This document shows positions 34,002 to 39,713 of a stretch of DNA of 64,000 nt, piece after piece. The position numbers and the translations under genes are program-made. The notes under the pieces were generated by a model that made no database searches, was not told the origin of the DNA, and saw only the letters and a list, made by a program, of their open reading frames with translations. Each line of letters opens with the position of its first letter. Position 1 is the first letter of the stretch. Source of the stretch: Planctomycetaceae bacterium (lineage in GTDB: Bacteria; Planctomycetota; Phycisphaerae; UBA1845; UTPLA1); NCBI GenBank assembly GCA_006969385.1, contig CP030884.1, positions 4,272,249 through 4,336,248 on the forward strand, in the 5' to 3' direction.

Positions 34002-34111
34002 GTGCCCCTGCCCTTCTAGGGCTGGGGGACTTCTGCATGTTGGTGCGGTAGGTACGTCCACTGTGGCGTGTTGATGCGCTGTGTGCCCCTGCCCCTCTGG
34101 GGCTGGGGGAC
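34002..34111. repeat. REP family A, two direct copies left of RAYT gene 1
   Basis: Copies at 34002-34030 and 34083-34111 read GTGCCCCTGCCC(T/C)TCT, then AGGGCTGGGGGAC or GGGGCTGGGGGAC. Each is a GC-rich hairpin. The first is only 12 bases past the arsM stop. The same motif in opposite orientation lies to the right of the RAYT gene. Confidence 0.85.
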
Positions 34112-34132: not shown

Positions 34133-34711
34133 TCAAATCTCAAACGGCATCCCGCCATCCCAATCCATTTCGATCAAACTTCGATCATCAAACTCATAAA
34201 ATCGAAAACTGCTCCACCGCCACTTTTCCGGCGAATCAACAAGCCCGCGCCGCACCGGGTTGTTGTGAAGGTACCGCAACTTCTCCAAGAGCTTCTTATC
34301 ATTCACAACGGAGAAGTCGTAACCGCGGGGTTTCCAGATGGGCTTATCACCATCACCCGTCGCCCATGCATTTAGTCGCTTGTCACCAATAGTTCTCCGG
34401 TGACGCCATACGTCACGCAACGCCTCCTTGGCATCGTGACCGCAGCGACCTTTGAAGTAATTCAAAACATCTGAGATCGGCGTCAAAGCGTTGCTCCCTT
34501 TTTTCTGCGGCACTACAACGGCGTGAATATGTTCAGACATGATGACATAGCCGATCCAGCGGATTGGGTACTTGTCGCGCGTTGCAATCATAGCTTTTAT
34601 CAAACTCAGCTTGACGGGATCGTGTCGGAAAAACGGTAGCCGCTTGAAGCACGAGATGGTGAGAAAATGAATCGTGTTGGGAGCATCGTGACGAATGAGA
34701 CGACTGGGCAT
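34133..34711 (-). CDS. REP-associated tyrosine transposase (RAYT) 1
   Basis: 192 aa of the Y1/IS200-like HUH family. It starts PSRLIRHDAPNTIHFLTISC. The HUH motif is in MSEHIHAVVVP (H-I-H), and LHNNPVRRGLVDSPEKWRWS is the conserved C-terminal signature with its Tyr-containing helix (LEKLRYLHNNP). RAYTs cut and move REP hairpins in trans. The gene is bracketed by REP family A: two copies on the left and two inverted copies on the right. This is a complete REP-RAYT unit of about 836 bases. Confidence 0.88.
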   Translation of the reverse strand: MPSRLIRHDAPNTIHFLTISCFKRLPFFRHDPVKLSLIKAMIATRDKYPIRWIGYVIMSEHIHAVVVPQKKGSNALTPISDVLNYFKGRCGHDAKEALRDVWRHRRTIGDKRLNAWATGDGDKPIWKPRGYDFSVVNDKKLLEKLRYLHNNPVRRGLVDSPEKWRWSSFRFYEFDDRSLIEMDWDGGMPFEI

Positions 34712-34737: not shown

Positions 34738-34837
34738 GTCCCCCAGCCCTGGAAGGGCAGGGGCACCCTTCCGGCTTGATATGTCCAGGGCTTTCGCGCG
34801 ATTCGGTTGTCCCCCAGCCCCAGAGGGGCAGGGGCAC
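34738..34837. repeat. REP family A, two inverted copies right of RAYT gene 1
   Basis: Copies at 34738-34766 and 34809-34837 read GTCCCCCAGCCC, a short loop, then GGGCAGGGGCAC. They are the reverse complement of the left pair, so the RAYT gene stands between inverted REP pairs. The two arms differ by single bases, mostly in the loop. Confidence 0.85.
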
Positions 34838-38144: not shown

Positions 38145-38168
38145 CAGAGCCGCGGCCTGTGGCCGCAT
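38145..38168. repeat. REP family B, left copy
   Basis: CAGAGCCGCGGCC, TG, GGCCGCAT is a hairpin (GCGGCC / GGCCGC) 26 bases after the cstA stop. It is preceded at 38127-38142 by another short perfect hairpin (GTGTTG / CAACAC). It is inverted with respect to the two right copies. Confidence 0.8.
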
Positions 38169-38202
38169 GAACGCCGCGCGCGATGCGTGTTCGCGTGATA
38201 GA

Positions 38203-38685
38203 TCATCCCTTCGTCGCACGTTGCCGCTCGATATAACCATACGCCGTGCGGAGATACGGCTTCTTCCAAACGTACTTGACGCTCCCGCCGACAGCCCACC
38301 AGCGCGGGCGCGATTCGTCGGGCCAACGCGCCGTTAGTTCTTGCCCCAGCCATGTCTTCAACCATTTGCGAATATCTCTCCCAGGGCGATCAGATGACAG
38401 CAGCACGTGCACATGATCGGGCTGAGTGGCGCAGATGTGGTATTCCCAGCCGCCTCGCTGGCAGATCGACGGCATCGTCGATTCTATGAATTGGCGTTGA
38501 GAATCGGTCAATACGACGGGCGCGGCGATCATCGAATCGCGCTCGAACTTTTGCTTCCACGGATCGTTCTCGACAATCGGCGTTCCGTATTGGTTGAAAT
38601 GACGCTCGACGGTCCCGCGCGGATCTCCATGCAAGCGCGTGCCGTAAGTGCCAAACGTGATGTGGTAAGCGAGGGGGAATTCCAT
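38203..38685 (-). CDS. RAYT-like transposase 2, divergent family
   Basis: 160 aa with a Y1-transposase fold. It starts MEFPLAYHITFGTYGTRLHG, has the HUH motif in ATQPDHVHVLLSSDRPGRDI (H-V-H), and ends YLRTAYGYIERQRATKG. It shares little with RAYT gene 1, so it represents another subfamily. It is bracketed by its own REP family B, with one copy on the left and two inverted copies on the right. Family A hairpins do not occur beside it. The protein is short but apparently intact. Confidence 0.8.
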   Translation of the reverse strand: MEFPLAYHITFGTYGTRLHGDPRGTVERHFNQYGTPIVENDPWKQKFERDSMIAAPVVLTDSQRQFIESTMPSICQRGGWEYHICATQPDHVHVLLSSDRPGRDIRKWLKTWLGQELTARWPDESRPRWWAVGGSVKYVWKKPYLRTAYGYIERQRATKG

Positions 38686-38740
38686 GATTGCCGCGAAATT
38701 GTATTAATTCGCATGAGATTGTGAATCGGTGCGTGATTGA

Positions 38741-38843
38741 CATGCGGCCACAAGCCGCGGCTCTGAACGGAGCTGGCAAAATGCCCGATTCACTCCGAGG
38801 CGAAACGCCCGAATTATTCATGCGGCCACAGGCCGCGGCTCTG
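38741..38843. repeat. REP family B, two right copies
   Basis: Copies at 38741-38765 and 38819-38843 read CATGCGGCCACA then (A/G)GCCGCGGCTCTG, reverse-complementary to the left copy. Together they place RAYT gene 2 between inverted REPs. Confidence 0.82.
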
Positions 38844-39545: not shown

Positions 39546-39690
39546 GCCGAGAAAAAGGCGGCGCGGTCGCGCTGTTGATTAGCGGAAACAAGCGATTGCG
39601 TTTGGAGGCGTGGGATTAGAATGCCGTTGTAATGGCTTGCTTCTCAGAGCGCCATTATGCAGCGTACAAACGCAGGGTGTGTGATTCGTC

Positions 39691-39713
39691 GCCGCGGGGA
39701 CGCGGCGGCTCTG
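39691..39713. repeat. Degenerate REP family B-like hairpin
   Basis: GCCGCGGGGACGCGGC followed by GGCTCTG. The tail CGGCTCTG and the hairpin pattern match family B, but the inner stem is changed. The 266 bases 39546-39812 hold nothing else convincing. Confidence 0.45.

Follow-up and report, generated by a model that had tools for sequence, protein, structure and literature searches.

Two transposase genes lie close together in this DNA, each among hairpin repeats of its own family, and the locus raises the question of what kind of element the second gene (RAYT2) and its hairpins (family B) form, and whether this transposase is matched to this hairpin. The window, i.e., the whole stretch of 64,000 nucleotides analysed, corresponds to G000:C1:4272249-4336248, and the genome (G000) is a single contig of 5.48 Mb. 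The locus is best explained, with a probability of roughly 0.78, as a REPtron, in which an HUH/Y1 transposase present in one copy cleaves and religates single-stranded DNA and is bracketed by the hairpin repeat that it spreads.

Table 1. Transposase genes and tagged hairpins, with positions in the window.
Feature	Position	Strand	Remarks
Family A hairpins 3′ of RAYT1	34002..34111 (34002-34030, 34083-34111)	-	
RAYT1, canonical REP-associated tyrosine transposase	34133..34711	-	NF047646, YLHNNP
Family A hairpins 5′ of RAYT1	34738..34837 (34738-34766, 34809-34837)	+	
Left family B hairpin	38145..38169	tag-first + (pattern match 38145-38166 (-))	CAGAGCC-GCGGCC-TGT-GGCCGC-ATG
RAYT2, HUH/Y1 transposase, 160 aa	38203..38685	-	Intact ORF; PDHVH; catalytic Y151 in YIERQ
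Right family B hairpin 1	38741..38765	tag-first - (pattern match 38744-38765 (+))	One stem mismatch
Right family B hairpin 2	38819..38843	tag-first - (pattern match 38822-38843 (+))	
Family C hairpin	39690..39713	-	Tag CAGAGCC as in family B, other stem, loop TCCC; type found beside RAYT2b

RAYT2 and its neighbour RAYT1

The RAYT2 product narrowly exceeds the cut-off of the Pfam Y1_Tnp profile (24.2 vs 23 bits). An AF2 model built from 31 homologs (mean pLDDT 86.9) matches IS200/IS605 TnpA structures with Z scores of 11.9–14.1 and the E. coli RAYT structure 4er8 with a Z score of 8.8. His91, His93 and Tyr151 are invariant among the 31 RAYT2 homologs, and Gln155 is present in at least 90%. Judged by the modelled fold, RAYT2 is a predicted HUH/tyrosine (Y1) transposase acting on single-stranded DNA. 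One family B hairpin stands to the left of the gene and two to the right, in inverted orientation with the tags facing outward.

The first-pass annotation placed this gene and its hairpins where they are found, as one of two dissimilar RAYTs within 4 kb of each other, each with its own hairpin family, and this description largely holds. RAYT1, which scores 88.2 against the 80-bit cut-off of NF047646, lies 3.5 kb from RAYT2, has no significant similarity to it by BLASTP and falls in a separate, well-supported tree clade. Pattern searches, on which all genome-wide family counts are based, find 120 copies of family A (six of them in the window) and 57 of family B in G000 at up to three mismatches, and none with the reversed-pattern control of either family; the family B pattern has no match in the shuffled window.

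Parts of the description need correction. Strictly speaking, RAYT2 falls outside the RAYTs (class 2, RAYT/TnpAREP): it resembles that class in its REPtron layout, a single gene between inverted dispersed hairpins, in the tens to hundreds of scattered intergenic copies and in outward-tagged pairs like REPINs, but it has no match to NF047646, carries Y---Q (YIERQ) rather than Y---NP, has the hairpin foot CAGA(GCC) rather than GT[AG]G and belongs to a different clade. Nor are the two systems a unique pair, since about ten REPtron-like loci are present in G000; by our own arithmetic the chance that some pair among so many lies within 4 kb is roughly 7%, which makes the spacing less remarkable. These loci include four YIHYNP transposases flanked by GTAG hairpins (L004, L005, L007, L011), a relative of that group with an internal stop (L006), a YIHRNP gene with GGTGCCACTGG repeats (L008), a RAYT1 relative (L010), and a divergent Y1 gene (L012/L045, G000:C1:828142-828567; QPDHFH, YIEAHN) of unsure tree position, flanked by the TTAGCC palindromes TTAGCCATGGGCCAATGGCCCATGGC and TTAGCCCCGGCCATTGGCCGGGG.

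Variation, placement and distribution of family B

The consensus of the aligned copies, written tag-first, is CAGAGCC-GCGGCC-TGT-GGCCGC-ATG. Loop and tag vary little, unlike the stem, in which changes are compensated. Among 36 distinct rows from G000 and a second genome (G001), 94% of stem cells are paired (87.6% in shuffled data) and 12 double changes are found where 1.6 are expected, a number reached in 0 of 500 shuffles. The stem variants include GCGTCC/GGACGC, ACGGCC/GGCCGT, GTGGCC/GGCCAC and GGGGCC/GGCCCC, and compensated pairs occur at orthologous sites in the two genomes. Folded as single-stranded DNA, the tag-first strand has an energy of -7.6 kcal/mol (z -2.0 vs shuffles); the z value of its complement is -3.2. 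C (G, as printed) is absent from the position just outside the tag in all 60 aligned copies read tag-first, and CG is over-represented one position beyond it; this pattern possibly reflects a cleavage or target preference.

About 54 of the hairpins in G000 have no adjoining transposase gene. Wherever two copies form an inverted pair within 800 bp, they face outward, both in family B (5:0, one pair being the RAYT2 bracket itself) and in family D, described below (6:0), a geometry shared with the RAYT2 bracket and REPINs. Family B copies are depleted in ORFs, as defined by a crude filter (22 of 57, against 77% of random positions), and by intergenic context (23 co-directional, 15 convergent, 3 divergent) they lie mostly downstream of genes. 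The tag-first strand is found on the lagging-strand template in a ratio of 39:18 (single-test p = 0.0075), a bias that is suggestive only, with gene orientation mixed in and with ori (~1.4 Mb) and ter (~4.2 Mb) placed by guesswork from 20 sparse samples of GC skew. Strand bias is not significant for family A (56:44 among the 100 copies listed) or family D (54:40).

Across 120 related genomes, family B exists as a family only in G000 (47 copies at up to two mismatches) and G001 (56 copies); the other 118 have at most one match each, and two of them have one isolated match. In G001, the corresponding site holds a RAYT2 orthologue, in conserved synteny and with three B hairpins, the gene being frameshifted in this draft assembly. 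In G002, of the same genus, the nearest RAYT2 homolog is 31% identical and no B copies are present. The expectation that each hairpin family tracks its own RAYT is therefore upheld for family B, which is confined to G000 and G001, the genomes that have RAYT2 and its orthologue, respectively, but family A is restricted to the same two, so presence and absence cannot separate the two systems and fail as a test of their orthogonality.

At 26 of the 32 G001 B loci compared, a B hairpin is present at the orthologous site in G000, so the spread of family B appears, from this comparison, to be slow or old. A clean empty site in G000 was sought at six B sites found only in G001; none was seen, and no movement was observed. 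In G000, a degenerate B stands at one of the six and D-type hairpins lie near two more; the remaining three have no B, and their intergenic DNA has been replaced, so no empty site is demonstrable.

That family B consists mainly of conserved RNA elements (terminators or 3′ stabilisers), among which a transposase landed, would agree with its position downstream of genes and with the sharing of most compared sites by G000 and G001, but is improbable. A terminator needs neither an unpaired tag nor a fixed loop, and no conserved T-run is found among the aligned B copies, which are near-identical and restricted to genomes with RAYT2. Moreover, RAYT2 homologs across the whole class show the same inverted bracket with outward tags, with stems that are particular to each lineage.

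For the REPtron, we infer that RAYT2 cuts and copies family B. The folded tag-first strand (5′ CAGAGCC, GC stem, TGT loop) would be bound by RAYT2 while single-stranded, probably on the lagging-strand template. The enzyme would read mainly tag and loop, tolerating compensated stem changes, and would occasionally place copies of lone hairpins, or of pairs facing outward, in intergenic DNA. The RAYT2 gene itself would be passed on vertically, without hopping.

Class assignment and the hairpin code of the RAYT2 clade

A scan of genome contigs finds 34 loci with RAYT2 relatives, all labelled planctomycetes and mostly Phycisphaerae, one of them (L066) being the orthologue in G001; no plasmid-borne relative was found. 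The tree, which took in the other Y1 proteins of G000 and the class 3 proteins of relatives, has four separate groups: the RAYT2 clade (98/98), class 3 (99/99), class 2 including RAYT1 (94/89) and class 1 (96/92). With class 3 rows chosen by motif, the RAYT2 clade branches outside class 3 itself as its sister (90/72), and on this sequence evidence the Phycisphaerae RAYT2 clade is probably the sister of class 3 TnpAY1.

Class 3 TnpAY1 is a rare group with Y----Q, NHVH and hairpins with a CnGA foot (Quentin et al., 2018; PMC6006769). RAYT2 resembles it in the extended N-terminus (PLAY-x-TF-TYGT-x-LHG), where PLAYHITFGTYGTRLHGDPRGTV aligns with class 3 PLAYLITFHTYGTWLHG-GSVDR, and in the WA motif, planctomycete host, low gene copy number, IS/REPtron intermediate character and flanking dispersed hairpins with a 5′ CnGA foot, which in RAYT2 is CAGA(GCC), in 57 copies. 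It differs in having YIERQ instead of Y----Q (YV[VI]xEQ), the spacing Y---Q being found in every intact RAYT2-clade member with a readable motif, and PDHVH instead of NHVH, NH occurring in few members of the clade. The two clades are separately supported (98/98 and 99/99), and the hairpins of the RAYT2 clade are simple and perfect, with a TGT or TCCY loop, whereas class 3 has a weaker CCGC-GACCGTNAGGGA-GCGG type. RAYT2 is termed class-3-like, without being class 3 proper, because by sequence it combines the CnGA foot and long N-terminus with DHVH and Y---Q.

RAYT2 also shares the HUH/Y1 fold (Z 12–14), DHVH and Y---Q with class 1.1 IS200/IS605 TnpA (IS608, ISDra2), and its best structural matches are IS200/IS605-like. 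It is nevertheless very improbable that RAYT2 is an ordinary insertion sequence of this type, with ends that resemble family B by chance or capture. No multicopy near-identical element was found in G000, only one gene and a 49% paralog (RAYT2b, G000:C1:876841); the hairpins, ~54 of them without the gene, far outnumber it and form inverted pairs; synteny is kept in G001; and the RAYT2 clade lies apart from the class 1 proteins of G000.

Class 3 domains (NHVH, YV..xQ) were also observed in frame and without stops inside alanyl-tRNA synthetase ORFs at eight loci: L073 (G073), L078 (G107), L079 (G090), L081 (G049), L084 (G111), L085 (G009), L091 (G016) and L083 (G029). The same applies to a valyl-tRNA synthetase ORF at L086 (G019). 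Linkers of these embedded domains read as translated hairpins (PSRDREGA, PLPHGRGS), and at all four loci tested (L079, L085, L091, L086) Pfam places a tRNA synthetase domain and Y1_Tnp in the same frame. In G004, G014, G015, G030, G062, G086 and G088, other transposase homologs are embedded in host-gene open frames of 840–960 aa. We found no paper on transposase domains inside aaRS genes; whole REPtrons inside these essential genes would, if true, be very surprising.

Most RAYT2-clade genes are flanked by outward-tagged hairpins on one or both sides; by a stricter scan, L172, L180, L187 and L189 have none. The hairpins follow the pattern nGAG, then an 8-bp GC-rich stem beginning CCG, then a TGT or TCCY loop. 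At two-sided loci with the same loop, stem sequences differ between the sides in 9 of 14. The first base of the tag is C in 11 scored members, mostly with PLAYH-type N-termini, and G in 16, mostly with WHIT-type N-termini, and it changes once on the transposase tree (8.8 changes in shuffled data; 0 of 500 shuffles). Loop type is only weakly associated with the tree, with six changes against 8.9 shuffled and 22 of 500 shuffles as low, which rules it out as a strict lineage marker.

The GTAG and CGTC tagged REP superfamilies (PMC3733652) are likewise short palindromes with an unpaired terminal tag, found mostly downstream of genes, but the tag of the RAYT2 clade is C[A/C]GAG or GCGAG. In vitro, the S. 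maltophilia TnpAREP depends on tag and loop and tolerates changes in the stem (PMC8266576), and by analogy the RAYT2 clade may recognise its hairpins in the same way.

Families that share a tag, and transposases that may serve them

The tag CAGAGCC is not private to family B and is common to families B, C and D. Family C (12 copies in G000) adjoins RAYT2b, so that in G000 RAYT2 is paired with a TGT loop (family B) and RAYT2b with a TCCC loop (family C). Family D, CnGAGCCGCGNCCGTNAGGNAGCGG, has ~94 copies in G000 (e.g., G000:C1:272404, 341957), where no class 3 transposase matching it was found. It occurs in 81 of the 120 relatives, with up to 676 copies (G090), and is more common in genomes with a RAYT2 or class 3 homolog (Fisher p = 9e-5); in 23 genomes with at least 10 copies, no such homolog was detected. 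In some relatives, D pairs stand at a fixed spacing, with starts 43 or 51 bp apart.

Persistence of family D in these 23 genomes and in G000 suggests, from the sequences compared, that tagged hairpins outlive, or borrow, their transposases, and it means that proximity alone is no proof of a substrate. Borrowing would mean that a single transposase acts in trans on more than one tagged family, with family C and the orphan family D also moved by RAYT2 (or RAYT2b) via the common CAGAGCC. This is unlikely, though it has some precedent: the E. coli TnpAREP processes other REPs that share a few features with its own (PMC8266576), and in G000 the tag is common to all three families while D, at ~94 copies, lacks a detected class 3 transposase. 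The D hairpin, however, is different and weaker, it adjoins class 3 transposases in relatives, and its presence in the 23 genomes is consistent with loss of its own transposase.

Beyond the REPtron itself, we tentatively propose, at somewhat less than even odds, that RAYT2 represents an undescribed TnpAY1 class between the IS200 transposases and class 3. Recognition would rest on a signal of two parts, the tag base (C or G) and the loop (TGT or TCCY), which would shift along the tree of transposases, with stems free to drift, and the several tagged families that share one genome may be served partly in trans.

Biochemical tests of how REP transposases and hairpins are matched are limited to a few GTAG systems. 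The RAYT2 clade offers ~30 natural transposase/hairpin pairs of one architecture, with a clean switch of the tag and repeated changes of the loop, and G000 adds two paralogs, present together in one genome, whose hairpins differ in loop, which makes the recognition code directly testable. The idea of an IS-to-REPtron intermediate, put forward for class 3, gains a second and better-sampled lineage.
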